Part shown: positions 2,133 through 35,407 of the stretch, piece by piece | How the letters are laid out: the number at the start of each line of letters is the position of its first letter | Position numbering within the stretch: position 1 is the stretch's first letter | Translations under genes and position numbers: made by a program | The notes under the pieces: generated by a model | Told to the model about the DNA's origin: nothing | The model's database searches: none | The model's input: the letters and a program-made list of their open reading frames with translations, nothing else | DNA from: Chloranthus sessilifolius | Taxonomy: Eukaryota; Streptophyta; Magnoliopsida; Chloranthales; Chloranthaceae | DNA length: 64,000 nt | Reading direction: 5' to 3' | Assembly (NCBI GenBank): GCA_021018995.1 | Contig: JAJIZI010000022.1 | Coordinates: forward strand, 1 to 64,000

Positions 2133-2863
2133 GAGTCAAAATTGTATCACCGCAAGCATGTTTGCAGAGTCAAACCATATGTTGTTATCCAATGTCGATC
2201 TTTTGATCAATTTATCCAATAGAAACGATTTTTAATCCGCATAGTGTTCCTAATGCGATGTTGAATGCGTAGTCGAGATCCATCATAGCCACGAAATGGC
2301 TGTGAAGACATATTTCACAAGACCAGTGACCATCTGGTCATGTTTTACCAAGGAACCAAAAGAGACATAAAAATAACAAAAATTTGAAAATCTGATCAAA
2401 ACCGATTAATCAATTTTGGTCGATTAGTCGACTGGCATACACCAGTGAGTGGATATTGAATGGAGATACAGGAAATTAATAAAACGAAATTTCAATTAAT
2501 CGATTCGGGTTTCGATTAATCGATTTTGGATTTCGATTAATCGATATTGGAAATTCGATTAATCGAGTGACTTGAGAATTTTAGGAAAATTTGAAGAACT
2601 TTACGATTTCGATTAATCGAAGTGAAATTCAATTAATCAATTTTGGGATTTCGATTAATCGACTTAGAGATTCGATTAATCAATTGGCATGCACTGTGAG
2701 CTGGAAAAGTTGGAGTTGAAAGTGACCACGATTTTGATTAATCAAAATGAATTCGATTAATCGATTTTGAGTTTTGATTAATCGATTATTCGATTTAGCG
2801 CGGCTAGACTAAAATTTTAAAACTCGATTATTCGATTTTCGAAATCGATTAATCAAATCGGGC
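2133..2863 (+). repeat. Palindrome array (TCGATTAATCGA type) upstream of the aORF of A
   Basis: After the end of pol there is about 260 bp without visible structure, then a dense array from about 2395 to 2860. It holds about 13 copies of ATTAATC, mostly inside TCGATTAATCGA or TTGATTAATCAA, spaced 20-40 bp apart with T-rich linkers. The same motif forms an array in this element's own LTR (about 19595-20015). The array stops directly before a TATA box, so it sits where upstream promoter elements would. It does not code for protein in any consistent frame. Confidence 0.85.
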
Positions 2864-3104
2864 CTATATATATAAATCGAAGGGGGATTTCTCCCCATTT
2901 GAAAATTTGGGGTTTTTTTTGTTCTTGCGCGCCTTTCCTTCTTCCTCGTCGAGCGACTGTGCACCTAGGGTTTCTTGGAGTTTCAAATCGATTTCGAATC
3001 AAAATCGCTTGCGTTCGGATCGAATACCTAAGGTAAAACCCTAGATTTCGACTTTCTTTCCATTTCACACTATAAACCCTAGTTCTTGTTAATTTGTTAT
3101 CGAG
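2864..3104 (+). promoter_or_regulatory. Internal promoter and leader of the aORF of A
   Basis: A strong TATA stretch (CTATATATATAAA, 2864-2875) follows the palindrome array and lies about 230 bp before the ATG at 3105. The leader is pyrimidine-rich and carries plant telo-boxes AAACCCTAG at 3036-3044 and 3074-3082, plus an inverted one near 2965-2973. Telo-boxes are typical of promoters and leaders of well-expressed plant genes. An AAG|GTAAAA at 3030-3037 could be a splice donor. The reading as an independent promoter is inference; no transcript data are available here. Confidence 0.6.
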
Positions 3105-3991
3105 ATGCCGCCTCGAACCCGCTTAACCTCGAATAAAGCGGCTTCGAAGCTCCTAGTCCGGCGTAAGAACACCACACCGCCACCACCAACACCATCGCCC
3201 GTAAGAACCCCATCACCGTCGTCATCGGATACCACATTCGGTTCGACAAGCGGGTTTTCGCGCGAAGCTTCACCGCACCACCCATCAATGTACTCCAACC
3301 AAATGAATGGTGGGCGGCTAAGACCTTTGAGAACGAGTACATTATTGATGAAAACTTGTTTACCGACCCCAACGTCGAAGGCGAGACCAAATGGGCTAGG
3401 AACTATTTGGTCAAAGCGGGCCTTGGCAATCTTTTAAAGCCACTCCACGGGTGCTATTACCCTAGGCTCGTACGCCTATTTTACCAGGGCTTGGAGGATG
3501 GCCCTATCGATGACATGGTTACGACCAAGATCGAGGGTCGTGACTATACCTTCACCCGTCGCCATGTTCACGAAGCCCTAGAATGCTATTTGGACTTCGT
3601 GCCCGAGACCACCCTCTTCCCACCATTTGCGAAAGAGGCGAGATTTGAAGAGATTATGACTCGGATGACCAATGGGAAGAAGGGGTCCGGATCGTCCATT
3701 CGGAGGGTCGATCTATCCCAATATATGTGGATGCTTGATTCGATAATCAACTGCAACCTCTACCCGATGCGTCACGATACCGAGAGGGTGGAGTTGGTCC
3801 AACAGGCCTTGTACGCGGCATTCTGCGGCCGTTGGTTCGACGCCATCATGATTGTGTTGAAGGAGATGAGGTATATCAAAGGAAAATTGATGAAGGGCAA
3901 TCTGAGACCCAAGGAGAAAATGTTGTATGCTTGACTCATTTCGAGCATGCTAGAGTGCTACTCAGACGCTCCAGGGTACGCCATCTCGCCC
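3105..3991 (+). pseudogene. aORF of chromovirus A, 5' part (interrupted)
   Basis: The ATG at 3105 starts a basic, proline/serine-rich N-terminus (MPPRTRLTSNKAASK). Around 3295 the frame shifts and a folded-looking domain continues to 3934: EWWAAKTFENEYIIDENLF, then WARNYLVKAGL, YPRLVRLFYQGLEDG, and further on QYMWMLDSIINCNLYPMRH and CGRWFDAIMIVLKEM. The same blocks occur in C (41169-42503) and, more distantly, in the Athila-like element (7785-10077). The wording resembles the 'putative plant transposon protein' family (PF20167-like, from memory), of unknown function. A stop at 3932-3934 and the Athila insertion at 3992 break it; the gene resumes at 18118. It sits downstream of pol, in the env-like position, but I see no signal peptide or membrane segment. 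Confidence 0.75.
3987..3991. repeat. Target-site duplication of the Athila-like element, left copy (CGCCC)
   Basis: CGCCC directly precedes the left LTR and is repeated exactly at 18118-18122 after the right LTR. A 5-bp duplication is normal for Ty3/gypsy integration and fixes both element ends. Confidence 0.95.
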
Positions 3992-5857
3992 TGTTGTCGC
4001 TCCACATGTGCCTTTTTTATGTGTATTTTGAGAACGAATTAATGAATAATAAGTTACATAATTTTAAATTATGAAAGAGATATCAGCACATTGAGGGCTA
4101 ACAATAGCCTGCAAGATCAGGGCCAATTGTAGTAAGTTTTAAAAGTGAGTATATTAAAGATCGTCCACAGAGAATTAGTCTGAAAAATGAGATAGACCTC
4201 CAGATCTGTGCTACCAGATCTGGCTCTATAATTATCTAGAAAGCAGATAAAAAGAGAGTGTTGGGTTTTTGTCACGTTTAACTAAAAGCAAATAAAGAAA
4301 AGAATTATCTAACTGATCCAGATTCAAGTTGGGGAAGTGATTAAAATAAATCAAATGGAGAAATAATAACTTTCTGTGATTTCGCCTTTGAATTTTAATG
4401 GAGAATATGCAACTAAATAGAGTTGATTCAATCTTCATCATCCGCTACCAAAGACAGATGTAAGAGAAATAAATAATTAAGGAAGGGGTTTAGACTTATG
4501 GTTATGATCATCCACTTAAATGGTCACGGATCATCCAATAGTTGTTGACCTATCCTCAATTCGAGAACATGAACATCACCGCAAGTGTCACGTAACTAGG
4601 TTACCAACGCTAATTCGTACAGGGGTAATGAATCAAGGGAAATTGCATGCAAAGTAGTGCATCTAAAGGAGTCTAATGCACTAAGGTGATCAATAAGAAC
4701 CCTTGACATGAATCCAATGGAGAAAACACAGTTTACAGCAACCTTTTAAATTCAATCTTACAATTACAGAGCACGGCTTTAGAAAGCCCTTACAATTACA
4801 GAGCACGGCTTTAGAAAGCCCTCAGACTAGCAGTCTTGAATCCGATCTCTTTGGCGTTACAAAAGCACTCTCAGCAATTCTCAAAAAGCAAAAGAGAGGA
4901 AGAAATTACAAGGGGTACAGATAGACTATCTGACCGGAAGGAGGGAAATAGAAATGAAAACTCAAAATCTGGATGCCTCAATTGGGCAAATGTCTTCTCA
5001 ATTTATAGCTTTCCCTCTATCCTGCACAAGGCTGAATTGACCAATCAGAAGTGCTCAGATCTGTATTGCCCAATGGCTGTTGAGCACGGGGATCCAGATC
5101 TGTTCTGGCCAATGAAAATGCTCTGATCTGGTTCAGCCAATCAGGCGTTAGAAGCATCAATTCTGTTATGGGAATTCAAAAGTTTGTTTGAGCTTCTAGA
5201 AGTTCCCGCCAAGTGATTTCATCTTTGGGTTTTCACGTGGGGCGGAATATGCCTTTGGTTTGTGCTTGGAATCTTCCGGAATGTCTCTGGGCTTTTAATT
5301 ACATTGGGGCGCGTGCAGAGTTTACTGAAATGCCCTTCAAAGTGGCTGTAAATCCCCAGTATGCCATTTCGCAGAGGTTAAGGGTCTTTTCGCAAAGTAG
5401 GTTGGCTCCAGAAGTTCTTTTCGCAAAGCAGAAGTTCTTTTCGCAAAGCAGAAGTTCTTTTCGCAAAGCACTTCTCTTCTTTTCGCAGAGGTAAATCTTC
5501 TATTCGAGGAGTGTTTTCTTCTTTTCGCAAAGTTCAAAGTTCTTTGCGAATAGTAGATGTTCTTTGCGAATTGAACTTTTAGCTTCCATTCTTCTTTGCG
5601 AATGGATCCTTCTTCTTCTTTAGGTCTTTTCTTGCTCTTTTAGGACCTTTTTAGCCATTGCTGAGGCTATTTCTTCACTCCCTCTTTGAGCTTGACATGC
5701 GTTGTCAGCTTTTTGATCATTTTAGGATGGTTTTCGGATTTGGACCTGTCTTTTTGGTTAGCTGCAATATGAACACTAAAGCACTTATTTAGTCCTCTCA
5801 AGGGCCTTTCAAGGCTCATGTTTAGGGGTGAAAAATGGTATTTTTCACTACTTATCA
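3992..5857 (-). repeat. 3' LTR of the Athila-like element
   Basis: This 1,866-bp LTR reads TG...CA and matches 16231-18117. A TATA-like GCTATAAATT lies on the minus strand near 5001-5007. A tract of TTCGCAAAG / CTTTGCGAA repeats occupies about 5385-5580. Between 4385 and 4610 it differs from its partner almost only at CAG/CTG triplets (see findings). A 35-bp direct duplication (ACAATTACAGAGCACGGCTT...) is at about 4758-4822. Confidence 0.93.
5385..5600. repeat. TTCGCAAAG / CTTTGCGAA motif array in the left LTR
   Basis: Tandem copies of a 19-bp unit built on TTCTTTTCGCAAAGCAGAA are followed by inverted forms (CTTTGCGAATAG, CTTTGCGAATTG). On the minus strand the array lies upstream of the LTR TATA. 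The right LTR has the same array (17625-17845) with a slightly different number and wording of units. Related TATTCGAAAAG motifs precede this element's aORF at about 10400-10690. Confidence 0.8.
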
Positions 5858-5870
5858 CACCCCCAAACCT
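5858..5870 (-). other. Polypurine tract of the Athila-like element
   Basis: Read on the minus strand, GGTTTGGGGGTG directly precedes the 3' LTR start TGATAAGTAG. A purine-rich tract there primes plus-strand cDNA synthesis. A very similar sequence occurs at the equivalent place in element E (28861-28877). Confidence 0.85.
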
Positions 5871-7784
5871 AAGCTTTGCTAGTCCCTGAGCAAAGAAACA
5901 TAAAAAACAAAGTAAAGAGCCACTTTTGTAGGAAGCACAGGTGCATTTAGCATATGCAACAAGCCTTTTAAACCCCTAGGTGATCCCTAGAGGAGGAGTG
6001 AAGTCTCCTGAGGGTTTTCAGTGAAGGTACCCACAAACTTCTCCATGAAACAGTTAATATCAGTGCAATATTATCAAATGAGCAATCAAGGAGCAGGGTT
6101 AGTTACTCTTGAATCAATGATGAAACAGAAAATTTGATTATTGTTTGCACAGGAATTTAAACATTTATAAACCTCATGAATGTTTCAATATTTCCAATCT
6201 GTGAACAGTCATAGAAAATCATACAAATGTGCCAGCAGTAAGCTCATCCTATGGATAAAAATTAGGTTATAAGTCATACTTAAGGTGCTCAAGTTCCAAC
6301 CCAAACACTCACCAGGGTATACTCTCATGTGTTTTTGTTGAGGGGTTCATTTTCACTCAAGCTCAAGAGCGATTACATCTCCCAAATGGATCTGTAAGCA
6401 TGAGCATAGGCATGATTCTTAGGCAATGGCATCATTGACATCTCCTCACCATAGATTGGGTCACTTCTCATCTCCACATGACAGCTCACTCAACTTTGGA
6501 TCACAAGGGCTTTTAATCTAGGTTTGTTTGTATGGCTTATGGAGTGAAGTTTCAAGGAAAGGCAATTTGATCAGAGGTTTGAATTTGAGAACTCAGGAAG
6601 TGCGGAGATGGTTCATGACTCCACCTTTTGAGTTTAGCTTCTTTCTTCTTCTTTTCAGATTCACATTCACTGATCAGTTCTTTCTTTGATCTTGCATTTT
6701 TCAACGAAGGTCCCTTTTTTTTTTTTTTTGCCTTTCGCTGCAACTTTTCACATTGTTTGTCTTTTCTTTTCTCACCACCATATTGCCTGTTTTTGAGGTA
6801 TTTTCTCTTCATTTTCTTGATGTTGCCCAAATGGTCCATCTTTAGTTCTTTCTCCTTTACCTCCCAATTCTCGAGTGAGGGAAGGCTGAATTAGTTCCAT
6901 AGGTTCAGTGCAAGTACTTTTGGGTATTTTTGATGAAGAATTGTAGGATTTACTCAAATGGGGTACAAACAGGGGCGATTTTTCTTGGTTGGTTACTGTT
7001 AGGTTCAAGTCATCCAAAGAAGGCCTTGATCTTTTCCTCGGTTTCATGAGTGTCACATTACTTGTTTTAATTTGGAGTTTCCTAACTTCTAGTGGATCTA
7101 ATGCCTCAATCCTTTGAATCGGAAAAAATTGCCTCATCACTCTTCAACAGAGATGGAAAATATATGGGCTCGATTCTCACCTTATGGTTTTTCCTTGAGC
7201 TTTTAAGTATATCTTTACCTTTTTCTCTTCCTTTTGACTTACTATGTGCTGATACCAGTATGTTTTTATGGTGTAATTATCATGGAAATGTAGAATATCG
7301 CAAGGTTTAGAATGTCTAAATTCTTGCAAAGAAAATTTTAAAATTTCCACATTGTCATGATTCTTAAGTAAAATAATTCATTTCCGACATTACTTAGGTG
7401 ATTCTCATTGTCCTTAGGTTAACTATTCCTTGGCAGACCTGCCACACCCCCAAACCTACGAGGAGCAGTGTCCTCACTGGTTCAAAGGTGGTGGCATAGT
7501 CACAGTTATTAGGGGAAAACAGCAGAAAAAATAATAGCATGGAGAATTGCAGAAAGCAAATTGTATGAACCAGAAATTTTACAGAAAAAATAAAAGAAAA
7601 GAGGGGGGAAAGGGAGTAAGGGTGAGGGTTTATTTTTGTTTGTTTCAAGTAGGGAGCACATAATGAAAAAATTGCAAAATAATGTAAAAAACAATTAAGA
7701 GAAAATGGAATAAGAAAGAAAACAAATGGCAAAATTGAACGAAAGATTTATACATTGTATTTGAGACACAGTAGATGCAGACTT
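5871..7784 (-). other. 3' region of the Athila-like element with a basic reading frame
   Basis: About 1.9 kb lies between the aORF end and the polypurine tract. Two overlapping minus-strand frames (7140-6772 and 6839-6552) form one broken lysine-rich segment of about 190 codons (KKKKKGPSLKN, SECESEKKKKE). I recognise no family, and it may be chance coding in purine-rich DNA. A second polypurine-like copy (GGTTTGGGGGTGTGGCAGG on the minus strand) is at 7441-7461. The stretch 7500-7735 is homopurine-rich on + and gives only low-complexity hydrophobic frames. Nothing else is recognised; 5871-6550 shows no gene. Confidence 0.5.
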
Positions 7785-10077
7785 TTAATAACTAGGATCA
7801 AAGTCAGTATCATAGATGGGTTCTATGGGCTCGGAACTAGAGTCACTGTCAGAATCCGAACTAGAATCAGTGTTGGAATCAGAACTGGATTTTGGTTTCT
7901 CAGGAATGGAGTTCTGGAGTTCAGTGTACTCTTCTGACTTGATCTTTCTGGTGAGGCCAAGGTGTTTGGTCATGGTGGTTTTCTTCCGTTCTTGAGCTAA
8001 TCGAGCTTGGAGCATAGCTACCTTGTCTTGTGCTCACTTTGACCAATTGGAATGTTCGTCCCACCGGATCCCTCATCTTCTCTCTCAAATTGCATGAAAT
8101 GCTCTAATTTTTGATTTTGGCCTCATAAGGGGTTGGATGTAGGCCTCCAAATCAGCCCCTTCGCACATCCCTACGGATGTGAGGATTTTCTATCATGGCC
8201 TGGAGAGGGTGGCATATCTAGGGAGGGATGGAGTGGTAGGGGACTAAAGGGGTCCATTTGGGGAGGGGGGTTAAGAGAGGTCATTTGAATGGCTAAATCG
8301 AAAACAGGGGTGGTGAAGGGTCTGCTTTGGGTAGCTGTGAGGCAAAATGGAGAGCAGGGTAATGGGGGTAGGTGGTAATGGGGGATTAACGATTTGGATG
8401 AGCTCAAATGTGATCGATTGTCGCATTTGTTTGGAGCTGGGCTTGGATATTTTGGAGGTAGGTGAGGATCTGGGTGTAGGGGGGAGGAGGAGGGATAGGG
8501 GTAGGATCTAGCTCCATGGGGTCAAATAGGGGTGAATACGACTCTGTGGGGAAAGGTTGGGGTTGAGGTCCTGGGATACCTCAGTGTATGTCTTTGAAGG
8601 GTGTGGGAATGTGAGGAGCTTTGGGCGGAGGGGTGGAAGGGGATGGAGCAAGGATTGGGGTGGCTAATTCCTCTAGGACCGGGTTATTGTTGGGGGAGAT
8701 GGGTGGTGTTGGGATAGTAGGGGTGGTTGGTGTGGTAGGGGTGTCCAAAATAGGGATGATGGAAGGTGTGGATGATGAACCACCGGGATGGGGAGGTGTG
8801 GAGGAATAGGGAACCGTGCCATCTGTAGTCAGAGGAGGTGCACCAAGAGCTGGCTACCTCGGTTGTGGACTAAGTGCGACAAGTGGTGCAGCTAAAGAGC
8901 TGGTCACCACAAGGAGTTGGGCTTGTAAACTGGTAGGGGCTGGCAGAGGCTCAGGGGCTGGTTGTGGCTCCACAGCAATTTCCACTTCTGCAGCATGCCC
9001 ACCCCCACTTTCAGGGCTTGGTTCTCTGTCATGCTCGGAAGAACTAGCTCGCTCAAAGTGCTATGGGTTCAGAACAGGGGTGCCGAGCAGGGGCATGGGC
9101 TGGTTCTCCTACTTCCCTCATTCTTCTTAACATGGCCTGACTTGTGGTCCAGGCTTTCTTGCCAAAGTTGTGAGGAGTGAGTACCTCAAAGGGCTCTTCC
9201 CTATCAATGTCAAACTTGGCTCTTAAGAGGGCTGAAATTAGTCTTCCAAAGGGGAGGCCAGCAATTTTCTGTTCCTTCTTTACCTTGGCACTCACATCAG
9301 CCATTGCTTCCAGGATGAGCATGGGGGCATTGAAAAATTGCCCCTTAGAAAAGTGAAAGAGGGCTTCGAGGATAGGAGTTCGCCTCTCTTGGGTATGCCC
9401 AGTTACATAAAAGCTCCCTCGGAGTATGGAATCCATTAGCAGATATTGCGGGGGCAGATCTCTTCTCATTATTGATTGCCCAGAACTCACCATGCCTTGT
9501 GTCAAATGGGCAGCCATGTTTCTGAAAGAGGCGCGGGGTTGAATTGAAAAGGTATCCCCAGAGCATGCCCTATGTCCTCAGCTGTCACAGTTAGGTCACA
9601 GTTATCTATGAAAATGACTAAGGTTGGCACGTCTGCAACATCTTCAGTGACCTTTGTGAGGTTTTGATACCACAGTTTTATCATCCTTGGATAAGTTGTT
9701 TCTGGTAATGGGGTGAGGATAGTGCTGAGAGAAGCTTCCCTGAGGTAGCTTAGGGATGGTAGGCAATCAGGTTTGGAGGAGAAAAAAGTTTCATCCACCA
9801 ATAACTCAGGTATGAGCTTCTGGGCATCAATGAAGGGGTTAGGCAAAACTAAGTGAATGGGTAATGGGGGCAGCTCAGACTCAGGGCTTGAGGCAGCAGG
9901 GGTAGGCTCCTTATGGCGTATTTTCTTTCCTTTTTCAACCCTATCTGCCTTGTCCATTGAAAGCTTTCTCTTTGCAGACGTTTTTGCTTTGCCTTTGGCT
10001 TTTGGGGTCGATTTGGTTGCCTTCTTGACTGATGATTTGGGGAACATGGCAGCTAAGGATTTTTCAGTCTTTCCCAT
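7785..10077 (-). pseudogene. aORF of the Athila-like element (about 765 codons, broken)
   Basis: The ATG at 10077 (MGKTEKSLAAMFPKSS) is chosen because upstream codons in frame lack an ATG. A lysine-rich N-terminus is followed by the domain shared with A and C: YPRMIKLWYQNLT near 9670, and after a frame change near 9510, PPQYLLMDSILRGSFYVTGH and GQFFNAPMLILEAM. A long proline-rich stretch (about 9050-8400) leads to a coil-like segment (ILTYLQNIQAQLQ) and a serine/aspartate-rich acidic tail ending YDTDFDPSY at 7785. It lies downstream of integrase, in the env-like slot, but no membrane segment is visible. Frameshifts near 9510 and 9053 and scattered stops break it. Function unknown; a DNA-binding regulator is my inference. 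Confidence 0.7.
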
Positions 10078-10718
10078 ACTTAAAATGGAGGAAAACAAAA
10101 GCCCAAATACTGGCTACCACAGATCTAGAACAAAAAATTTTGAGCGAGAATGGATAGAAACAATACCGCGATCTAGGGTTTGTTTTTGGTAGTCGCTTTG
10201 TTGTCTGAATCGCCTAACCGATCGACTTTGATCTCTAAAATGGAACGCTCAAACAATTAGGAACAAAACGGCTGATATCCTTGAGGAGCTCGTGTGAGAA
10301 GCGAGTGAGCTAGGGTTTTAGTGGAGCGTCGCTCTGCAGAGAGTATTTGCAAATACAACGCTAACTTCAAAACGACTAAATATACTTGAAGCTAAAATCG
10401 CAAAGCACCTTTAAGTTTTCGAAAAGTTCCAAAAGAGCCCTTCTTATTACTTCGAATGGCAAAAGTGCCTTTCGACAAGTAGATAGCTTCGGAAGATTAT
10501 TTCAAAGGACTTAGCTTCAGAACCGTCTATTCGAAAAGGAAATGTTATCATAATCAACTATTCGAAAAGAACATCTTTGTTTTCGAGCAGTTCATTGCAG
10601 CTCCAGAATCTATTCGAATAGAACTTTGGACTTTGCGAAAAGTAATTTTTTCTTTTATGATTTGAACTTTAAGTGTAATTAAACTATGCGAAAAGGAAAA
10701 GAAATGAAACAGAGAAAT
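10078..10718 (-). promoter_or_regulatory. Internal promoter and TTCGAA-type motif array before the Athila aORF
   Basis: Between integrase and the aORF, on the minus strand, lie about ten TATTCGAAAAG / CTATTCGAATAG / TTGCGAAAAG motifs (10400-10690), a TATA-like TATATTTA (10377-10384) and a roughly 300-base leader with telo-boxes AAACCCTAG at 10310-10318 and 10173-10181. The motifs resemble the TTCGCAAAG/TATTCGAGGAG motifs of this element's LTR. This repeats, in an unrelated lineage, the layout seen before the chromovirus aORFs. Promoter function is inferred. Confidence 0.55.
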
Positions 10719-11989
10719 TTAGTAAAAACTATGTTGTACAAACATAATATACAATTTTCTACCATCAGATTTTGGAGATTCGTGATGATGATGGGCAAAG
10801 ACAAGCTCGAATGTTGTCAATGCATGGCTTGAGCCTCGACCATTTACCTTAATGACTCTTCCATCATTGGGGTCTGAAATTTCCACGCTCTCGAGGGGAG
10901 GCCTTGATGACGATGTATGGCCCTTCCATCGGATCTCAATTTGCGGAAAGAATTTAAGTTTAGAGTTGAATAACCATACCTTAGAGCCGGGTATGAACTC
11001 TTTTCTCATTAAACTCCTATCATGAAATGATTTGACTTTCTCCTTATACAATCTGGAGCTTGTATAAGCATCCATCCGCATGACTCTTCCAATTCAAAGT
11101 GAGTTGAAGTTTCTGTGATTACCAAAGAAGTTAGATCCATATTAAATGTTTTAATAGCCCGTAAAGCTTTGTATTCTAACTCTCTTGGCAAATGACATGC
11201 TTTGCCATAGACCGCCTAAAGGGGACATTCAATTGGAGTTTTGTAGGCGCTCAGATGCCCACAAAGCATCATTCACCTTAAATGACCAATCCTTTCTCTT
11301 TCTTTCTTTTTCCAAAATGTATTTGATTTTCTATTGGAAATCTCCACTTGTCCACCGTTTGTGGATGATAGGGAGTGGCTACTCTATGAGTGATGAGTAC
11401 TTTTCAATAGAGCTTCAAACGCACATGTTGTAAAGTGGCTCCCCATCACCGATGATGGCTCGGAAAACCAAACTGGAAAAATGTGGTCCTTGAGAAATTT
11501 CAAAACCACTTTGTGATCATTTGATTTAGTAGCTATGGCTTCAATCCACTTGGAGACATAGTCCGCTACTAAAATGAAGTTATTTCCATTAGAAGGAGGA
11601 AAGGGCCCATGAAATCTATTCCCCATACATCAAACACTCAACTACTGTGATTGGTCATGCGGGGCATTGAGTTTCTTTTGGAAATACCGCTTTTGGCGCT
11701 GCAAGATTTACATCGTAAGGCATCTTTAAAGATTGTGGGCCAATAGAAACCACATCGCAGAATTTTGCAATTGCTTTATTGTTAATCAATGGCCTCCACA
11801 GCTTCATGACACATTGACAATATGCCGTGGAATTCATGGTCCGGGACACACTTTCCGATCACTTGGTCCGCACAATTCTTGAATAGATAAGGGTCTTCCC
11901 AAATGAAATTTTAACTTGTGAGAAGAAAAGATCTTTATCCATTCGATTCCAATGTTGAGGAATCATCCAAGCCAAGAAGTTGACTATGT
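10719..11989 (-). pseudogene. Athila-like integrase, broken
   Basis: Reading down from about 11989, zinc-domain remnants (CHEAVEAI-like wording, then FYWP-equivalent FLLAHN) come first at 11850-11700. The core follows at 11626-11384: [21 protein letters not shown], then [11 protein letters not shown] and the region of the second Asp (SSVMGSHF). The C-terminal part is at 11191-10719: CHLPRELEYKALRAIK, RLYKEKVKSFHD and WLFNSKLKFFPQIEIRWKG. These are standard Athila integrase landmarks. Several frame changes and stops separate the segments, and no chromodomain follows. Confidence 0.85.
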
Positions 11990-13380
11990 TTGCAAACCAA
12001 GGATCGTGGGTATTGATGGCAAAAAGTTGCTCATCGAAATGATTCATTAATGGGTAAGCTATCATCCTCGTCGATTGAGAATTCGGATAAGTGATCACCA
12101 CCACATTCTCCACTCCTTTCTTATCCTTAATCAGATCAAACTCTGTAATAGGAGGATCCATCGATTAATAACTGGGCTTGGTATCCTTCTTAGACGGAAG
12201 GTACTTTAGGGCGAGTGGTCAAGAACACCACAATTTGTGAACCTAAAACATAAGACCTGAATTTTTCCAATGCAAACACAATGGCGGACTCTTTCTCGTT
12301 GTTGTGTAGTTGAGCTGGGCATCTATCATGGATCTGCTGGCATAAGCTATGACATGGGGAAGCTTATCCTTTCTCCGCCTAGGACAGCTCCTAGGGCATA
12401 GTCCGATGCATCACACATCAGCTCAAAGGGTCTTGAATAGTCGGGGACCGCAAGATGGGTCAAATCGACATTTCTTAAGGACCTCAAAGGTCATGCATTC
12501 ATCGGTAAATACAAAAGGTACATCTTGACACGATGAAATGACAGAGTGGCTTGGAAATTTCTTGAAATCTTTGATGAACCTCTATAAAATCTGCATGCCC
12601 TAAAAACTTCGATTTGCTTAACAGCCTTGGAGGAGGCAAATGTGCAATTAGATCAATTTTGCTTGGTCCACCTCTATGCCTTTATGGGAGACCACATGTC
12701 CTAGGACAATGCCTTGGTGACCATAAAATGACTCTTTCGACTTAGAACCAAATTGGTTTCTTCACATCTTTGCAACACCAACTTGAGGTGGTGTAAGCAT
12801 TGGGAAAAGTCGCTCCATAAATTGAAAAGTCATCCATGAAGATCTCCATGAATTGATCAATCATGGAAAAGATGGCATACATGCATCTTTGAAAAGTAGC
12901 AGGGCATTGCAAAGACCAAAGGGCATCCTCCTATAGGCAAAAGTGCCAAAGGCGGTGAAGGTGGTCTTTTCTTGGTCCTGTGGTACAGGATCTGGTTGTA
13001 ACCAGTACCCATCAAGGAAAGCAGTAAGCTTTGCTGCAAGCTTATCAAGAATTTGGTCAATGAAGGGAGGGGAAATGGTCTTTTCTTGTCATGGTATTCA
13101 ATTTTCTGTAGTCTATGCGGACCCTCCATCCACATTGTTTGTCCGGTGGACATAAGTTCAGATTCAAATTCTATAATATGATGCAGATTTCTTAGGCACC
13201 ACCTGTGGGTGCTACCCAAGCAGAATCAAATGGGGTAAATGACCCCAAAGATTGACATCTATGACTTTACAACTTCCTTCATAACCACCTCTTGCATGTG
13301 AGGATTCAGCCTTCTTTGCATTTCTCTGGAAGGCTTTGCATCCTCCTCAAGGTGGATCTTATGCATGCAAACAAATTGGT
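11990..13380 (-). pseudogene. Athila-like reverse transcriptase and RNase H, broken
   Basis: RT landmarks on the minus strand, in shifting frames, are RIDYRKLN near 13110, FAYRRMPFGLCNAL near 12910, the catalytic FMDD (12829-12837, intact) and GIVLGHVVSHKGIEVD near 12710-12680. RNase H follows with YYASRTLN-type wording near 12330, NNEKESAIVFALEKF near 12290, then DLIKDKKGVENVVV at 12140, where the last Asp-containing motif is altered. The intact enzyme would copy element RNA into cDNA. At least five frame breaks make this copy inactive. Confidence 0.85.
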
Positions 13381-14284
13381 TTATTCCTCCCAAATCAGCA
13401 ATGGTCCAAAATTGCTTTCTTGTGCTGTTTTAGAACTACTAACAGCTCCTCTTCTTGCTCCTTTGTGAGGGAGGAAGTAATAATAACAGGCAATGTTTGA
13501 TGATCTCCCAAAAATATATATTTCAGATTTTTGGGTAGCTGTTTGAGTTCTAATTCTGGTGAAATTTGAGAAAAGAAGGTAGCAAAGGTACCTTGGTAAC
13601 TTGTGGAAGAGGAGAGTAGCGGGTTTCAAGAAGGGGAACTTGATGATTGTTTGTGAGTGCCTTGCACAAAGTTGACTCCTTTGAATTTGATCTCCCTTTT
13701 CCTTCTTTTCCAATGGATCCCCAATCATTTTTTTCTTCTGTGGTGGAGTCTTCACCTGCAAAGACTCCTCCACAAGTTCATCCATGATGTCAACATGAAA
13801 ACACTCTTCGAGAAATTGAGGTTGGTTAAGATTATAAACATTCAATTTGACTTTCATATTACCAAAAGAAACTTCCATGATACCCGACATTGAATACAAG
13901 CATTTGTCAGAGCTGTGAATGGTCTTCCTAAAATGACAGGATGGAAGTGTCTTTTAGTGGTTCCATGTCCAACACCGAAAATCAGCAGGATAGAAGAATT
14001 TATCTACTCCTACTAGCACATCTTCAATCAATCCCAGGTTTTCTCTCGGATCTGTCGATTAGTTGCAACACCACTTGAGTGGGTTTCAATTCTCCCAAAC
14101 CTAGCTTCTCATATCTGAATAAGGAAGCAGTTGACACTAGCTCCCGGATCTAGCGTAGCTTTCTCGATGGTATGCTCCCCAATGATGCAGATTGTGGGGA
14201 TTCAGGATCTTGCATTTTAGGGGTGTTGCAATGGATAGCACTTGGTTGATTCTCTCCAGAAAGGCCTTCTTGGATAGATGTATC
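13381..14284 (-). pseudogene. Athila-like aspartic protease and protease-RT linker, broken
   Basis: The aspartic protease motif LDPGASVN is readable on the minus strand at about 14128-14160, after YAKFLKEV at 14335-14300. The downstream linker (13899-13381) has the Athila hallmark SGIMEVSFGNMKVKLNVYN, then a charged low-complexity stretch. The protease would cut the Gag-Pol polyprotein. Stops around 14080-13920 separate the pieces. Confidence 0.75.
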
Positions 14285-14887
14285 CTAGATTGCCTTTTGT
14301 GGGTGCACACCTCTTTGAGAAATTTTGCATAGCGAGGACTGTTTGATTGCATCAAGCAGAGGTAGATTAATTTTAACTTGCTTGAATGTCTCCATCATTT
14401 CCTTAATTTTTGTGTTTCCTTTGTCAAAAGGAGAAACTGACTTCATTGCATGAGGAAATGGGAGGTGAGGAACAAATCTCTCCTCCTCATCTTTTTCAAC
14501 AATTTTTTTATTTTTCTGTTTTTCATTTTTTTTTGTTTTCTGAGGTAAATCAACAACCTCATTGCTTTTATCATGCTGTTGTTCCTGCACTTGTTCTTCA
14601 TCTTTTTCCTCTTCACTACCCACTGTGTTGTTTATTATTCTTCCACTTCTCAAAGTAGTCACAGCTTTGATTTCCTCATGGCCATTTGAGGATTCTCCAA
14701 CCATGAACTGTCCCTTAAGATTGTTCACAGGTTGGCTGGGTAGTTTGCCCTCCTCTCTCTTACCTAATGAATTTGAGAGTTGCCCCAGAGTTTCTTCAAT
14801 TTTTTAATGCTCATGTGAAGGTTCACATTGAGATGAGTTCCAAGATTTTGAAGTGAACTCAAGACCCGCTCTTCAAAGGTCGTGGAT
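14285..14887 (-). pseudogene. Athila-like gag-protease linker
   Basis: The frame 14728-14285 reads EEIKAVTTLRSGRIINN, a typical Athila landmark just upstream of protease, then an acidic/basic low-complexity block (EEEKDEEQVQEQQHD, KKNEKQKNKK), PHLPFPHAMK and FKQVKINLPLLDAIKQ, which normally leads into protease. The remainder up to 14887 is broken. Confidence 0.75.
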
Positions 14888-15960
14888 CTAGGAGGGCAGG
14901 GCTGGTGCATCGTGCATGGCTTGTTGTTGGTTAGGCTCAAAATTTGATTTATTATAAAAATTCGATATGGTCGAAAGGTGTTTGAAAGGTAATTGATTTT
15001 GAATGGTAATTTGATTCCACGAGATTAGGATGAGATCTCCATGGGTAGTCATTCGATTGCATCTGTCCATAAGACCGAAATGAGCTTGTTCCATCATGAG
15101 TTGAAATTGTGATGCGAAGGACATTGATCAATTGAATGAGTAGGGACCGCATATCGTATATGCCTCCTCTACTCTTGACCCATTTGGAGCTTTAAATGAG
15201 TCCATCAGCCTATCAAATTTTGTGGTTAAATTATCCACTTTCCTTTCCAGCTCATTGACTTCATAAACTTTCCCTCTTGTGAATTGGGGATTATTTATCC
15301 TAGCTGGATTCTCAGTGTCCCTTGACAGAGATTCCTGCTGGGTTGAATTTTCTCCAATTACCTCAAAGAGGTCCCAAACCTCTTCAACTGTTTTCTGCAA
15401 GTAAGACCCTCCACAAGAGGCATCCACCATGTTCTTGCCCTTCTGATCAGTTCCTTGATAGAAGCTTTGAACCAGCCATTTAGGAATTTGATGGTGAGGC
15501 ATTGCCTTAATGATTCTTTAAACCTTTCCCATGCTTCATGGAAAGTTTCAGTTGAGTTTTGGGAGAAAGAGATGATGCTTTGTCTTAGTTGGCTGGTTTT
15601 AGTCATTGGGAAATATTTTGACAAAAATTGACATTGCAAATCATTCCATGATGTGATGCTGTTTGGTGCTAACATAGATAACCATGCTCTAGCTTTGTCC
15701 TTTAATGAAAAAGGAAAGAGCCTAAGCTTGGTTGCCTCTGGACCAAGTCCAGCTATGTTAAATGTTGTGCACAAAGCCAGAAATTCATCAATGTGTTTGT
15801 AAGGGTCTTCCTTACTCAATCCATGGAATGAAGGCAACATTTGGATGGTGGAGGACTTAATTTCATAATTTCCCTCCACTGTGGGAAATTGAATGCAAAA
15901 TGGGGAATTATAAGCACCAGGGGCAAAGTAGTCTCTTAACAATCTCTGGTCTTGGCCCAT
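14888..15960 (-). pseudogene. Athila-like Gag (retrotrans_gag domain), frameshifted
   Basis: The 15960-15358 frame holds a clear Gag capsid-type domain: FPTVEGNYEIKSSTIQMLPS, FHGLSKEDPYKHIDEFLALC, RLFPFSLKDKARAWL, QFLSKYFPMTKTSQLR and ETFHEAWERFKE. A frame change near 15490 leads into 15502-15128 (PHHQIPKWLVQSFYQG, then LERKVDNLTTKFDRLMDSF), the usual Athila continuation; a degraded C-terminal part follows to about 14888. I do not see an intact zinc knuckle. Gag would assemble the virus-like particle. The chosen start is the first frame-consistent Met (15960); the true start may lie upstream. Confidence 0.88.
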
Positions 15961-16207
15961 TTCGGATATACATGATGTATGTCGGTTTCTTAGGAGTCTT
16001 TCAACTTCAATTTAACGGAGAATCTCAGATTGAGGGTTCTCTGCCAAACATACAACTACTCGAGAGAGGAATTTGGTACAAGACAAACTGTTGAATTACG
16101 TGCTTTCCTTTCCTTCATACACCGTAAGTCGCATGTAACAATGTAATTAATAAATGACTGATAAATAAATGAAAATAAACATAGGTCTATCTATTTTAGA
16201 ACAAATT
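15961..16207 (-). other. Untranslated leader of the Athila-like element
   Basis: About 250 bases lie between the primer-binding site and the first Gag Met on the minus strand. No other feature is seen. Confidence 0.5.
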
Positions 16208-16224
16208 CCCCGGCAGCGGCGCCA
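16208..16224 (-). other. Primer-binding site, tRNA-Asp type (Athila-like element)
   Basis: The minus strand reads TGGCGCCGCTGCCGGGG six bases inside the 5' LTR. It is complementary to the 3' end of plant tRNA-Asp apart from one base, the usual Athila primer. Its presence fixes the orientation of the element. Confidence 0.9.
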
Positions 16225-16230
16225 AAAACT

Positions 16231-18117
16231 TGTTGTCGCTCCACATGTGCCTTTTTTATGTGTATTTTGAGAACGAATTAATGAATAATAAGTTACATAA
16301 TTTTAAATTATGAAAGAGATATCAGCACATTGAGGGCTAACAATAGCCTGCAAGATCAGGGCCAATTGTAGTAAGTTTTAAAAGTGAGTATATTAAAGAT
16401 CGTCCACAGAGAATTAGTCTGAAATATGAGATAGACCTCCAGATCTGTGCTACCAGATCTGGCTCTATAATTATCTAGAAAGCAGATAAAAAGAGAGTGT
16501 TGGGTTTTTGTCACGTTTAACTAAAAGCAAATAAAGAAAAGAATTATCTAACTGATCCAGATTCAAGTTGGGGAAGTGATTAAAATAAATCAAATGGAGA
16601 AATAATAACTTTCTGTGATTTCGCCTTTGAATTTTAATGGAGAATCTGCAACTAAATAGAGTTGATTCAATCTTCATCTGGCTACCAGCACAGATGTAAG
16701 AGAAATAAATCTGAATTAAGGAAGGGGTTTAGACTTATGGTTATGATCTGTCCACTTAAATGGTCACAGATCATCCAATAGTTGTTGACCTATCCTCAAT
16801 TCAGAACATGAACATCACTGCAAGTGCTGTCAGAACTAGGTTACCAACGCTAATTCGTACAGGGGTAATGAATCAAGGGAAATTGCATGCAAAGTAGTGA
16901 ATCTAAAGGAGTCTAATGCACTAAGGTGATCAATAAGAACCCTTGACATGAATCCAATGGAGAAAACACAGTTTACAGCAACCTTTTAAATTCAATCTTA
17001 CAATTACAGAGCACGGCTTTAGAAAGCCCTTACAATTACAGAGCACGGCTTTAGAAAGCCCTCAGACTAGCAGTCTTGAATCCGATCTCTTTGGCGTTAC
17101 AAAAGCACTCTCAGCAATTCTCAAAAAGCAAAAGAGAGGAAGAAATTACAAGGGGTACAGATAGACTATCTGACCGGAAGGAGGGAAATAGAAATGAAAA
17201 CTCAAAATCTGGATGCCTCAATTGGGCAAATGTCTTCTCAATTTATAGCTTTCCCTCTATCCTGCACAAGGCTGAATTGACCAATCAGAAGTGCTCAGAT
17301 CTGTATTGCCCAATGGCTGTTGAGCACGGGGATCCAGATCTGTTCTGGCCAATGAAAATGCTCTGATCTGGTTCAGCCAATCAGGCGTTAGAAGCATCAA
17401 TTCTGTTATGGGAATTCAAAAGTTTGTTTGAGCTTCTAGAAGTTCCCGCCAAGTGATTTCATCTTTGGGTTTTCACGTGGGGCGGAATATGCCTTTGGTT
17501 TGTGCTTGGAATCTTCCGGAATGTCTCTGGGCTTTTAATTACATTGGGGCGCGTGCAGAGTTTACTGAAATGCCCTTCAAAGTGGCTGTAAATCCCCAGT
17601 ATGCCATTTCGCAGAGTTTAAGGGTCTTTTCGCAAAGTAGGTTGGCTCCAGAAGTTCTTTTCGCAAAGCATAAGTTCTTTTCGCAAAGCAGAAGTTCTTT
17701 TTGCAAAGCAGAAGTTCTTTTCGCAGAGGACTTCTCTTCTTTTCGCAGAGGTAAATCTTCTATTCGAGGAGTGTTTTCTTCTTTTCGCAAAGTTCAAGGT
17801 TCTTTGCGAATAGTAGATGTTCTTTGCGAATTGAACTTTTAGCTTCCATTCTTCTTTGCGAATGGATCCTTCTTCTTCTTTAGGTCTTTTCTTGCTCTTT
17901 TAGGACCTTTTTAGCCATTGCTGAGGCTATTTCTTCACTCCCTCTTTGAGCTTGACATGCGTTGTCAGCTTTTTGATCATTTTAGGATGGTTTTCGGATT
18001 TGGACCTGTCTTTTTGGTTAGCTGCAATATGAACACTAAAGCACTTATTTAGTCCTCTCAAGGGCCTTTCAAGGCTCATGTTTAGGGGTGAAAAATGGTA
18101 TTTTTCACTACTTATCA
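16231..18117 (-). repeat. 5' LTR of the Athila-like element
   Basis: This 1,887-bp LTR starts, on the minus strand, TGATAAGTAG at 18117 and ends GACAACA at 16231. A TATA-like GCTATAAATT lies at 17241-17247, with the TTCGCAAAG/CTTTGCGAA array (17625-17845) about 400 bp upstream of it. The match to 3992-5857 is near-perfect except for clustered differences at CAG/CTG sites and in the array. Confidence 0.93.
17625..17845. repeat. TTCGCAAAG / CTTTGCGAA motif array in the right LTR
   Basis: This is the same array as at 5385-5600, with four or five direct GAAGTTCTTTTCGCAAAG-type units and several inverted CTTTGCGAA units. Unit number and spelling vary between the LTRs, as expected for tandem repeats. 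Confidence 0.8.
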
Positions 18118-18743
18118 CGCCCCACGAGGAGAGGGCAACGGATTGCGTGAAGCACTACTCCATCGCTTCATGGGGCTGTAGCTATCGGTTGTGGAAGAAG
18201 GCCCTACCCGTTCATGGGGCAACAATAGCACTACCACAGCAGGACCCTCCAGTAGGGGGAGCACCACCTGTCATTCCACCCGCTGAGGGAGCCCCATCAC
18301 AGACCTCAATGCCAGCTGGGAGGCAGCCCATAGTGCCTCCTACCACATCTGCTATGCCACCTTCACAGTCGGCGGCTGCCACACCTACATCACCCTACCG
18401 CCGCTGAGCAGCTCACCCAATGCCCATGATAGAGGATGTGTTGGACCGGATGGAGGCCAACAACCAAATGATGAACCGGTGCATGAACTTCTTGATGTAC
18501 CACACCATGCGGTATATCTACCCGTTAGATTATCAGCAGCGTCTCACGCAGGAGGAGGCGTGGACTGCGGGCCGGACCGCCTTTCACTTGGGTGCCGCCT
18601 TTCACGCGAGTACCTCTACTACTGATGCATCCGGCTTGGTGCCCCTACAGCCTGCTGAGATGAGCCAACCACCACCAGAGCAGCCAGCCCAGACAAAGCA
18701 GCCCGCCCCAGCAGTAGATCAGCCGGGAGAGGGGACGGCGTGA
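18118..18743 (+). pseudogene. aORF of chromovirus A, 3' part
   Basis: This continues the gene interrupted at 3991; the first five bases are the target duplication. It codes a proline/alanine-rich stretch (PPVIPPAEGAPSQTSMPAG), a stop at 18405-18407, then a conserved C-terminal segment (IEDVLDRMEANNQMMNRCM, then YHTMRYIYPLDYQQRL) that looks helical, and a PQ-rich end to TGA at 18741-18743. The segment matches C at 42285-42400 (MEANTRQMVENNHLLNRRL, then MRFMYPADY). Without the insertion the gene would be about 500 codons. The stop overlaps a GTGAGC donor-like sequence. Confidence 0.72.
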
Positions 18744-18995: not shown

Positions 18996-19594
18996 TGTAA
19001 TATCCTAAAAGTTTGAGCGTTAAACAGTGACCTTGAGATCCGTGCCTGGCTGGTCGTAGGTTTGACCAAGTGATGGTCAAACAGTGGACTCATGAAGTTA
19101 TGTGCTAGTGTGGGATTAATGTAATCTAAGTGTAGTGTATGATGTTAAATTTGAGTCACATACGTCTATCTCTGGTGTATGCGCTTAACACCGAAACAAG
19201 AGAGAAGGATATAAGGCTTTAATAACCCTAGGATTCTTTGTTTGGTTATTGAAGAGAGAGTTAAGAAGAGAGAGAGAGAGAGAGAGAGAGAAGGTAATTA
19301 ATTACCAAGGAGTTATTGTGGTTGGATTGGAAGGAAGATTGAGCATTGATTGCCGGATTCAACGCGTTTGGGATCGTTGAAGCAAAAGCTGGAACCCTAG
19401 CCATCAAACCCCAACAAATCAATCCTTTAAAGGGTTTATTGAGGTAAGTTTCATTAGATTTCAATACATAAAGATGTGATGAGTTTACTTCAGTCAAGCA
19501 TAGTTAGAATGATAGATTAAAGACTAGAAAAGAAAGAAAAATAGATAAGAAAAAGATTTGGAAGAACAGCCCGAAAGGGGGCTAAATCTGGCCA

Positions 19595-20015
19595 AATCGA
19601 TTAATCGAAATCGAGATTCGATTAATCGATTTTGGTCTAGAAGTTGAAAAGTTAGGGATGCCCGATTTCGATTAATCGATCTAGAAATCGATTAATCGAT
19701 GTTGAAGGTCGATTAATCGATTTAGAAATCGACTAATCGATTGGGTACCTTCAGTGGCTGGGAAACAAGACTTGGGGAAATCGACTAATCGAGTTGAGAA
19801 ATCGATTAATCGATTTTGGATTTTGATTAATCGATTTGGGATCGACTAATCAATTTCGGACTTTCGACTACTCGATTCTAGAATCGATTTAACAATTTTG
19901 GGATTTTCGATTAATCAATTTGGGATGGATTAATCGATTTTTGATTTCAATTAATCGATTAATCGATTTGGGGTTCGATTAATCGATTTTGGAAATCGAT
20001 TAATCGATTTTGGCA
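19595..20015. repeat. TCGATTAATCGA palindrome array in LTR A
   Basis: It holds about 13 ATTAATC and three or four ACTAATC sites, mostly as TCGATTAATCGA, every 20-35 bp. It is the same motif as upstream of this element's aORF (2395-2860). It lies between a splice-donor-like and an acceptor-like site. Confidence 0.85.
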
Positions 20016-21079
20016 GTTTCACTTGACTTTCTAGTTTGACCTTGAGGTTCATGGAGGGTCTAGGACCTTCTCTATTGCATCTTTAGTGATGTATTGCATG
20101 TGTTGTGATATACCATAGGTGGTACGTGTGAAAGCAAGCACAAGGAGCCACGTGGGACCTTGAGGCTTGGACCTTCAGAGACCTGAGGTAGGGAACACCT
20201 TGAACATGTACTTTAATTGCAAGAGCATGTATGTAGTGATATAGAGACCAATTTGAAAATGCTTTAACTGTAAAAATCTTTTAAAAAATGGGTGTGTGTG
20301 TGTGTGACACCAAGAAAATGATCAAGGCATCAGTGTGATGCGAGTAACTGAGACCAAGTAAGTTAATGAAAATGAGGCATCCCCAGGGGAAGAGAAAGTG
20401 ATAAAGGCATCAGTGTGATGTGAGTAATTTAGACATCCCAGGGATGTAAATAAGATTGAATAACTATTGTTAAGCCCTAACTAATATAAGATAGCATATT
20501 TAAACGGTGAACAACTATATGTAAAGCACATGTTATTTTTGTTATTTGAGGTTTAATTAGAATACCCCACCGACGTAGCGGGATACCCATGACTGACGCA
20601 GCAGGATATCCGTGACTGGTACGACGGCCAATCCGTACACCAGTACAGAGGTTTATCCGTACACAGTAAGCACATCCCAGGGATGTTGAGATGAGATTTA
20701 ATCCCGCAGTCTATTGAGAAAGGGGCTTGGGTAGTATTCTCAGGGAATACATATAACAACTGTCTATTTAGGCGACGATGGTGGGTATTCCATTGGGGCT
20801 CGATGCTATATTACATGGGGATTACTTAAGTTGAAGATTTAAGTTTTGCTTTAGGCCTGTTCGGTGTCGTTCATGATAAATTAACAGTAAAGTAAAACAT
20901 GCAAACTACCAGTAAACTTGAATGCAAATTGTCATCTTTAAACTGTTTTCTAGCAATTGCATAGACATATCATGCTTTGAATATCATGGAATATATGTGA
21001 GATTTTGACTTATATGTTCATTATGTCGTTCCCTATTGAGCTAGGATGTAGCTCACCCCTTTAGACTATACGTCACAAG

Positions 21080-21182
21080 TCCATTATTAGTAGCGGCCGA
21101 GGCTTCGGGAGACGTAGATCCGGGTGATTCGGATTACGTGCCTGGGGATGAGTTGGAGCCCCCTCCTGAGGACTTCTTCTAG
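21080..21182 (+). other. Conserved acidic mini-exon in LTR A
   Basis: After a pyrimidine-poor acceptor-like site (CGTCACAAG) an open frame encodes AAEASGDVDPGDSDYVPGDE, then LEPPPEDFF and stop. The same peptide, in the same phase relative to the acceptor, occurs in LTRs B, C and D, with related ones in G and H. The ATG-less frame suggests a last exon rather than a stand-alone gene. Confidence 0.5.
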
Positions 21183-21559
21183 GAGGCTCTGCTGAGCGCT
21201 TTGAGAGAAAGTTTTGTGTGCATATTCGTACGGTTTGGTATGTCAAGCCTTTATTTTGGATAAACAATGTAATTATACTTCAATATGCTTTTTGGCGAAC
21301 CATCTGGGGTGACCTAGGTTTATCACCGATGGTTCGGGCCTGTCCTTGTGTCCATACATTGGCATGGAACGAGAACTGCTTTTGAGCTCTTTCATTTAGA
21401 GAATAATATATTATTAATGCATGTTTTCATTCAGTTCATACGCCTTACTTGATTGGTTTTGGCTTGTTATACCAATGTTCCGTACATAGTTTTGGGGCAC
21501 GGTCTAGAGGATCATGCTTATGGCACGGGTTTCGGGGTGCTAAAATCTGGGCTGTCACA

Positions 21560-23152: not shown

Positions 23153-23744
23153 TGTAATATCCCAAAAATTTGCGTTAAACGATGACCTCGAGATCCGTGC
23201 CCGACTGGTCATAAGTTTGACCAAGTAGGAGTTCACAAATTGACTAGAGAGGTGATGAACGGATGTGATGTGAAAATGATGTAAGTGTGTGGAGTGAGGA
23301 TAAATGAGAATCACTTACGCTTATTTTGGGTGTATGTGCTCAACACAAGGAGAGTAGGGATATAAGGGTTTAATAACCGTAAGCATTATCTTGAGTTGTT
23401 GAAGAGAGTTAAGAAGAGAGAGAGAGAGAGAGAGAGGGGAGTAATGAGGGTTGTTGAACAAGGAGTAAATGCAAGCTAAGGGAGGGGGATTCGAACAACA
23501 AACGCCGGATTCGACGCGACTTGGATCCTTTGGAGCAAAAGCTGGAACCCTAGCCTTTCCAACCTCTAGATCCAATCAAATTGGGATTTGATTGAGGTAA
23601 ATTTTGTGAATTAAATGCATAGATTATAGAAGTTTAATTGTAGTCAAGAATACTTAAAATCATAGGATAAAGGCTTAGAAAAAGAAAGAAAAATAGGTTG
23701 AAGAGGATTTGGAAGATCAGCCCGAGAGGAGGCTGAATCTGACC

Positions 23745-24165
23745 AAATCGATTAATCGAAATGGGAGTTCGATTAATCAATTTTGGTCTGGAAGTTGAAA
23801 AGTCAAGTAAGCCCGATTTCGATTAGTCGATTTGGAAATCGACTAATCGACTGGGTACCTCCAGTAGCTGGAGGAAAGTAACCTGGGGAAATCGACTAAT
23901 CGAATTGAAATTTCGATTAATCGATTTCGGATTTCGATTAATCGATTTTGTGATTTTGATTACTCGAGTTGAGAATCGACTTCATTAAGTTAGAGACTTC
24001 GATTAATCGATTTGGGATTGATTAATCGAATTTAAATCTTGATTAATCAATTTTGAGAATCGATTAATCGATTTGGATTTTGATTAATCGATTTTGAGAA
24101 TCGATTAATCGATTTGGATTTTGATTAATCGATTTTGGGAATCGATTAATCGACTTTGACAGTTT
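23745..24165. repeat. TCGATTAATCGA palindrome array in solo LTR B
   Basis: At least 12 ATTAATC sites, several of them in the alternating pair TTTTGATTAATCGA / GAGAATCGATTAATCGA, occupy the position equivalent to the array in LTR A. The motif is the same as in A. Confidence 0.85.
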
Positions 24166-35405: not shown

Positions 35406-35407
35406 GT

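Follow-up and report, generated by a model that had tools for sequence, protein, structure and literature searches.

The window analysed here comprises the first 64,000 nucleotides (nt) of contig JAJIZI010000022.1 from Chloranthus sessilifolius (assembly GCA_021018995.1, forward strand) and looks like plant DNA with nested long terminal repeat (LTR) retrotransposons, in which no host gene was recognised. Three of these elements, designated A, C, and N, carry an additional open reading frame (aORF) near the 3′ end, and in each of them an array of a short palindromic word (hereafter dyad) lies in the LTR and again directly upstream of the aORF. The word changes from family to family and is matched within the element, and the arrays look, judging from their sequences, like sites of regulation that differ in specificity from one family to the next.

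The elements were mapped by self-comparison of the window and direct reading of the sequence. Element A enters the window with its pol, which extends to position 2132 and is followed by a dyad array, the aORF from position 3105, and the 3′ LTR (18996–21559, plus strand; TGTAATATCC...GGCTGTCACA), its 5′ end lying beyond the window. The pol product contains Integrase_H2C2 and SH3_Tf2-1 domains and then a Chromo domain (E value 1.3e-6), all above the cut-off, and by this order of integrase and Chromo domains A is a chromovirus-type element (Ty3/gypsy). Element C (about 33074–45514, plus strand), with a 5′ LTR at ~33074–35405 and a 3′ LTR at ~43168–45514 that are 85% identical, can be assigned to the same type from 75% similarity of pol DNA. 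Element N (3992–18117, minus strand) sits inside the A aORF, is bordered by CGCCC on both sides, and has LTRs that are 97.5% identical. The primer-binding sites of N (16208–16224; TGGCGCCGCTGCCGGGG, tRNA-Asp-type) and C (35408–35419) differ, and N is therefore probably of another lineage than C; TGGCGCCGCTGCCGGGG is regarded as Athila-like, and N, with a 3′ additional frame in sense orientation, may belong to that lineage. The remaining LTRs belong to a solo LTR, B (23153–25651, plus strand), which is flanked by ACGAA on both sides, is 74% identical to the LTR of A, and lies within that of D, an older element. The portion of the D LTR to the right of A (21560–26630, plus strand) is interrupted by B, and its left end lies beyond A. 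Element E, on the minus strand, has its right LTR split by C and a primer-binding site at 32040–32056; its LTR holds dyads of the TCGATCGATCRA type at 28417–28478 (50 base pairs [bp] apart) and 45588–45625 (about 20 bp apart).

The dyad of element A, TCGATTAATCGA, has 42 matches in the 64 kb when at most 1 mismatch is allowed, every one of them within 3 arrays (13 in 2420–2856, 15 in 19597–20007, 14 in 23748–24153, and 0 elsewhere), compared with a mean of 0.25 and a maximum of 2 in 100 shuffles. Pattern counting and word scoring place the first array at 2402–2856 on the plus strand (16 sites with at most 2 mismatches). The region 2395–3104 is the pre-aORF region of A, as the initial annotation proposed, because a TATA box lies at 2864–2877 and the aORF starts with the ATG at 3105. 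The second array (19597–20007, plus strand) lies in the A LTR behind the LTR TATA box (19207–19216) and a splice-donor-like GAG/GTAAGT at 19443/19444, whereas the third (23748–24153, plus strand; pattern count) is the LTR array of B. The early proposal that A repeats its array in the LTR and directly before the aORF TATA box is thus borne out.

For an unbiased choice of words, every one of the 4096 palindromic 12-mers was scored in each array. TCGATTAATCGA was the top word in the pre-aORF array of A (score 35), the A LTR (41), and the B LTR (37), and TTGATCGATCAA was the top word in the D LTR (43), where word scoring delimits the array to 22053–22691 (plus strand). In C, TCGTTCGAACGA ranked first both in the pre-aORF array (40610–40875, score 7) and in the 3′ LTR array (43745–43990, score 8); the arrays, on the plus strand, extend by word scoring over 40620–40868 (TCGTTCGA[A/T]CGA) and 43766–43980, respectively. 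The 5′ LTR array of C (33679–33865, plus strand; scored over 33655–33880) is decayed, its top word being GATCGATCGATC (score 4), with TCGTTCGAACGA tied for rank 2 (score 3). That C would carry a different dyad in its LTRs and before its aORF thus holds for the pre-aORF and 3′ LTR arrays and fails for the decayed 5′ copy; the dyad originally named for C, TCGTTCGATCGA, fits about as well as TCGTTCGAACGA and is an imperfect palindrome. The top word in the pre-aORF array of N is CTTTTCGAAAAG (11), which in both LTRs of N is tied with CTTTGCGCAAAG (12). The N pre-aORF array (CTTTTCGAAAAG/CTTTTCGAATAG type; 10380–10720, minus strand) lies between pol and the aORF ATG and extends as far as a TATA-like box; the LTR counterpart (17590–17910 in the right copy and 5340–5660 in the left copy, minus strand) lies upstream of the LTR TATA box at 17239–17249. 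N thus provides a third pair of LTR and pre-aORF arrays in the window, beyond those of A and C.

The words of A, C, and N score only 0–3 outside their own families, the A word reaching 0–1 in the C arrays and the C word 0 in the A arrays. In all 3 elements readable at both places (A, C, and N), the LTR shares its word with the array before the 3′ aORF, the C 5′ LTR alone failing, in agreement with the suggestion that the word changes between families and stays matched within an element. Controls comprised 186 windows of 300 bases (17,205 pairs) from which all arrays were left out, including those of N, which had first surfaced as high-scoring outliers among the 127 control windows of an earlier word scan and were excluded for that reason. 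Four of the 186 control windows reach a score of 7, and in 11 of the 17,205 pairs the two windows have the same top word at scores of 4 or more each; in every one of these cases, the words consist of A and T only.

The aORFs next to these arrays are damaged and yet comparable. That of A begins at 3105 (3105–3991, plus strand), where the frame of the ATG differs from the frame of the long open piece at 3167–3931, is interrupted by N, and resumes at 18126–18743, with an in-frame stop at 18405–18407 and a final stretch that can be aligned with that of the C aORF. The C aORF (41169–42503, plus strand) is broken by frame changes, and that of N (9056–10077, minus strand; ATG at 10077), with a very basic start, by at least 1. 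Direct comparison of the pieces aligns the A aORF with the first piece of the C aORF (E value 3e-17, 32/74 identical) and with both open pieces of the N aORF (3e-12, 33/112 identical, and 2e-13, 28/86 identical); the C-terminal parts of the A and C frames align too. On these alignments, the aORFs of A, C, and N are homologous. Domain searches matched the A piece at 3167–3931 to PF20167 (Transposase_32, function unknown; E value 8.8e-8, 32.7 bits) and the N piece at 9056–9559 to the same family (9.7e-5, 22.8 bits), in both cases below the Pfam cut-off of 45 bits, whereas the N piece at 9505–10077 and the C aORF pieces searched remained unmatched. The aORFs are accordingly at most distant relatives of PF20167, given that the scores fall below the curated cut-off and the C pieces lack a match. 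Searches of the A and N aORF pieces against protein databases returned no match at an E value of 0.001, IMG/VR scans with one pol piece and one dyad pattern gave no matches, and a search of solved structures gave 1 match, with an E value of 0.9.

Each pre-aORF array ends at a similar distance from the TATA box of its aORF. The centre of the last dyad lies ~14.5 bp upstream of the TATA box in A and ~16.5 bp upstream of that in C (40877–40889, plus strand), and in N the last site, of which one half fits well, is centred ~15.5 bp upstream of a TATA-like box picked by eye (TATATTTAG; 10376–10384, minus strand). The LTRs of A, B, and C begin 205–235 bases ahead of their TATA boxes (the start of D is out of view), and in A, B, C, and D the LTR array is downstream of the likely TATA box, behind a splice-donor-like GAG/GT or AAG/GT that is mutated in the C 5′ LTR. 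The LTR array thus does not precede the LTR TATA box in these 4 LTR types; only in N, unlike in A, B, C, and D, is the array upstream. A position behind the TATA box in A–D and in front of it in N suits an enhancer or an anti-silencing site.

Neighbouring dyads lie about 2 helical turns apart. Counting sites with at most 2 mismatches and leaving out those with 3, 58 of the 83 distances between neighbouring dyads in A, B, C, and D are 19–22 bp, the commonest being 21 bp (32/83), with spacers that vary in sequence and length. Eleven of the 12 CGs of the internal array of N, and all 11 in each of its LTR copies, are centres of sites, which lie 20–22, 31–33, 40–42, or 53 bp apart, and once 17 bp. 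The N sites are phased at 10.3–10.4 bp, to a degree that none of 2000 random placements attained for either LTR copy and 30 of 2000 attained for the internal array, figures that lose some of their weight in that the LTR copies are not independent, random placement ignores tandem duplication, and 1 of the 12 internal CGs was dropped as no site.

Conservation singles out the dyads from their surroundings in the comparison of the A and B LTRs, where dyads are 94–96% identical and spacers 74% (Fisher p 1.4e-8 to 2.9e-7 over 4 choices). Sites were defined in one LTR only, gap columns were set aside, and 3 aligner settings agree; a weakness of the comparison is that an aligner may prefer to register dyad on dyad in such repeats, and 5 dyads picked for their unique flanks are identical at 59 of 60 positions. 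At the start of the A and B LTR arrays stands a pair of dyads whose aligned counterpart in the C LTR has changed in both dyads. The 5′ and 3′ LTRs of C, diverged from each other after the element inserted, show no dyad excess, identity being 36/58 in dyads and 112/174 in spacers.

We propose that the arrays are clustered sites for a dimeric, sequence-specific DNA-binding factor, which would act on the LTR and on the separate promoter of the aORF. The same factor very probably binds both arrays of an element. That this factor is the product of the aORF is a suggestion to which we give an even chance; it is based on the co-occurrence of homologous aORFs in what look like 2 lineages, on words that switch at similar spacing, and on the position of an array at the aORF promoter. 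The PF20167-like product would be made from its own promoter, bind the dyads of its own family as a dimer, raise or maintain its own expression, and hold its family's LTR in an active or unsilenced state, with a specificity that would drift between families; if each family has its own factor, the switched words are explained. Switched and matched words together with homologous aORFs fit one family of DNA-binding proteins with drifting specificity. The factor may act by activation or by anti-silencing. Taken as a whole, the account in which the aORF encodes a self-made dyad-binding factor is our best explanation, and we consider it evenly poised between right and wrong.

This layout is already published for the Sireviruses of the Ty1/copia group. 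Their repeated motifs are palindromes, one word per element, and numerous copies lie both in the LTR and immediately before the env-like gene (PMC2829016). Linker copies were described in the 9 motif-bearing elements with an env-like gene (77 of 79 copies upstream of the gene) and in none of the 4 without one, and the motifs are CpG-rich, 12 of 13 having a CGG-CCG core (PMC2829016). Elements A, C, and N resemble this description in having the same palindromic word in the LTR and upstream of a 3′ additional gene, and depart from what that source portrays in several respects: A has the Ty3/gypsy chromovirus order and is not a Sirevirus, its integrase pieces being followed by a Chromo domain; the CGG-CCG core is missing from the consensus words of A, C, and N; and LTR copies upstream of the TATA box, as described for Sireviruses, occur here only in N. 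Helical spacing, a selection test, and a link to the gene product are absent from the accessible part of the Sirevirus description (PMC2829016).

The precedent put forward initially was VANC, the protein of the VANDAL DNA transposons, and the comparison applies to the way of working but not to the layout, for which the Sirevirus repeated motif is the nearest precedent. Related VANDAL families differ in their words, coevolution with an element-encoded DNA-binding protein has been proposed, and binding and loss of methylation have been demonstrated (PMC5735166, PMC10398659). Family-specific short words in tandem arrays of noncoding regions are common to VANDAL transposons and to A, C, and N; the former, however, are Mutator-like DNA transposons and the latter LTR retrotransposons, and the VANDAL motif YAGTATTAY is not a dyad. 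Among LTR retrotransposons, the accessible parts of 2 reports describe additional genes between pol and the 3′ LTR in Grande (gene23, with its own promoter) and Retand (TRP28, with predicted DNA binding), which differ from the present aORFs in being antisense to gag-pol and having another domain, and for which matched LTR arrays are undescribed in those parts (PMC7264820, PMC11963269). A partial account of sunflower elements gives the 3′ sense aORF of Athila a partial PF20167 match and a predicted nuclear signal and the aORF of Tekay a 5′ position and no known domain, and reports no arrays with either in the portion available (PMC11728184). A literature search that covered few subscription journals recognised no matched arrays for chromoviruses or Athila among the matches listed, and a search by dyad words found no retrotransposon paper by title.

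Several observations weigh against an aORF-encoded factor. The domain search recognised no known DNA-binding domain in the A, C, and N aORF pieces, the PF20167 scores are below threshold (32.7 and 22.8 versus 45 bits, and none for C), and 2 structure models of the aORFs, with predicted local distance difference test (pLDDT) values of 40 and 42, are unusable. There are only 3 elements, and the aORF of every one is broken. The match between the internal sites of N (CTTTTCGAATAG type) and its LTR sites (CTTTGCGAAAAG type) is close rather than perfect, because one half-site is common and the other differs. Helical phasing across long gaps was tried for A–D and rejected (gaps of at least 30 bp, R 0.22 at 10.5, n = 22). 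The accessible Sirevirus data add 6 env-carrying elements without the motif, and 4 of 13 motif-bearing elements without an env-like gene (PMC2829016); within the window, the E LTR has dyads of a similar type without a readable aORF. The proposal of the initial annotation that a DNA-binding protein, perhaps the aORF product, coevolves with its sites accordingly gains from the switched and matched words, the homologous aORFs, the conservation of dyads between A and B, and the similar spacing, but loses from the failure to recognise a DNA-binding domain.

The last 2 of these observations, the gene-less Sirevirus elements and the E LTR, also favour host transcription factors as the proteins that bind the arrays; every family would then have enlisted its own choice of host factor for the LTR and the aORF promoter alike, so that both are expressed in the same cells. 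Sirevirus motifs are also described, in the part of the report available, as holding mainly sites for stress-related host factors (PMC2829016). Host factors alone, however, do not predict a single format of 12-bp dyads at a spacing of about 2 helical turns, with letters that change, in 3 elements with homologous aORFs, and we regard this possibility as rather unlikely.

Improbable, to our mind, is a history of copying in which tandem repeats arose at one of the 2 places and reached the other by template switching or conversion, making a binding protein unnecessary. Sharing of spacer words, with dyads masked, speaks in part for such a history: the 2 arrays of A have 34 6-mers in common (mean of shuffles 11.6, maximum 27) and 7 8-mers (mean 0.6, maximum 5), and those of N have 33 6-mers, a number equal to the shuffle maximum (mean 12.9, maximum 33), and 4 8-mers (mean 0.5, maximum 7). 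In C, by contrast, 6-mer sharing of the pre-aORF array stays within the shuffle range, both with the 3′ LTR (17; mean 8.1, maximum 20) and with the 5′ LTR (18; mean 13.8, maximum 28), although a spacer AATTAGTRA recurs, by eye, in the LTR and internal arrays. Between pol and the 3′ LTR, Retand elements often have tandem repeats that are specific to the family and have no known function (PMC11963269). Given the shared spacer words of A and the recurrent AATTAGTRA of C, copying may contribute, a further point to the detriment of the aORF-encoded factor, and it possibly helped to spread the words; it leaves unexplained that dyads are conserved above spacers and that the arrays of A, C, and N end ~15 bp before a TATA box.

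The arrays are very unlikely to be silencing targets or boundaries, that is, CpG-rich islets rather than activator sites: observed/expected CpG is 2.1–3.1 in the A, B, and C arrays against 0.4–0.8 in the other LTR parts measured, part of this excess being there by construction because the words contain CG, and 20 of the 34 mismatches in A-type sites are CpG transitions, yet the place at the TATA box and the dyad conservation between the A and B LTRs suggest a benefit to the element. By array, the ratio is 2.5–2.7 in A and B, 2.2–3.1 in the internal and 3′ LTR arrays of C, 1.6 in D, and 0.9–1.3 in N. The CpG transitions are consistent with methylation of the A-type sites.

Besides its array, each LTR of the types A to D has near the 3′ end an acceptor-like AG, displaced by one base in A, behind which lies a short acidic reading frame. 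By reading and alignment, it ends with a stop in A (21081–21182), B (25192–25293), and both LTRs of C (34930–35025 and 45046–45141), all on the plus strand; the D counterpart (from 26114, plus strand) runs on without the stop seen in A, B, and C. The ratio of nonsynonymous to synonymous substitution rates (dN/dS), determined for A, B, and the 5′ and 3′ LTRs of C (C5 and C3), is 0.20 for A–B, 0.26 for A–C5, 0.35 for A–C3, and 0.19 for B–C3 (B–C5 was not computable), and 1.39 between the 2 C LTRs, whereas the other 2 frames give values above 1 in 9 of 10 between-family comparisons. Single pairs show a modest third-position excess in the acidic frame (p 0.048, 0.068, and 0.006). Given the different values of the acidic and other frames, a coding stretch of 31–33 codons seems to lie in the LTR, possibly as a terminal exon. 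That the acidic frame continues an open frame of LTR exon 1 was rejected, since in that phase a stop, read by eye, precedes the donor by a short distance in A, B, C3, and D. A donor-like site near the end of the C aORF (~42487) would fit in phase, but A has no such site at the aligned place. A candidate middle exon is present in the LTRs at 20119–20187 and 24265–24333, with counterparts in C and D; its borders, TAG/GT ... TGAG/GTAG, coincide in the alignment of A, B, C5, C3, and D.

What function additional ("env-like") genes serve in plant retrotransposons has long been an open question, to which matched, family-specific arrays in the LTR and at the promoter of the additional gene offer a concrete and testable answer, namely, that such a gene may specify a switch belonging to the element itself. 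A bolder generalisation, which we put forward tentatively and regard as more doubtful than the reading of the present elements, is that the PF20167-like "env-like" proteins encoded by plant Ty3/gypsy elements, perhaps together with their Sirevirus equivalents, would be self-recognising transcription or anti-silencing dimers that use a 12-bp dyad at 2-turn spacing, act on their own promoter and LTR, and change specificity between families, with the acidic, possibly activating exon of chromovirus LTRs belonging to the same system. If so, plant genomes would hold many natural pairs of DNA-binding proteins and sites in which specificity change could be studied, and these would also be useful for understanding how elements escape silencing without activating their rivals.

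The interior of C occurs twice in the window, at 36081–41322 and 54787–60051. The 2 copies are 99% identical, whereas the LTRs of C differ by 15%, and self-comparison revealed no LTRs around the second copy, which looks like a later duplication of the C interior. It includes a copy of the pre-aORF array (59340–59605, plus strand) that, lying within a 99% identical duplicate, provides no independent evidence. Large inverted repeats are located at 61066–61766 (249-nt arms, 88%) and 51311–52017 (198-nt arms, 83%).
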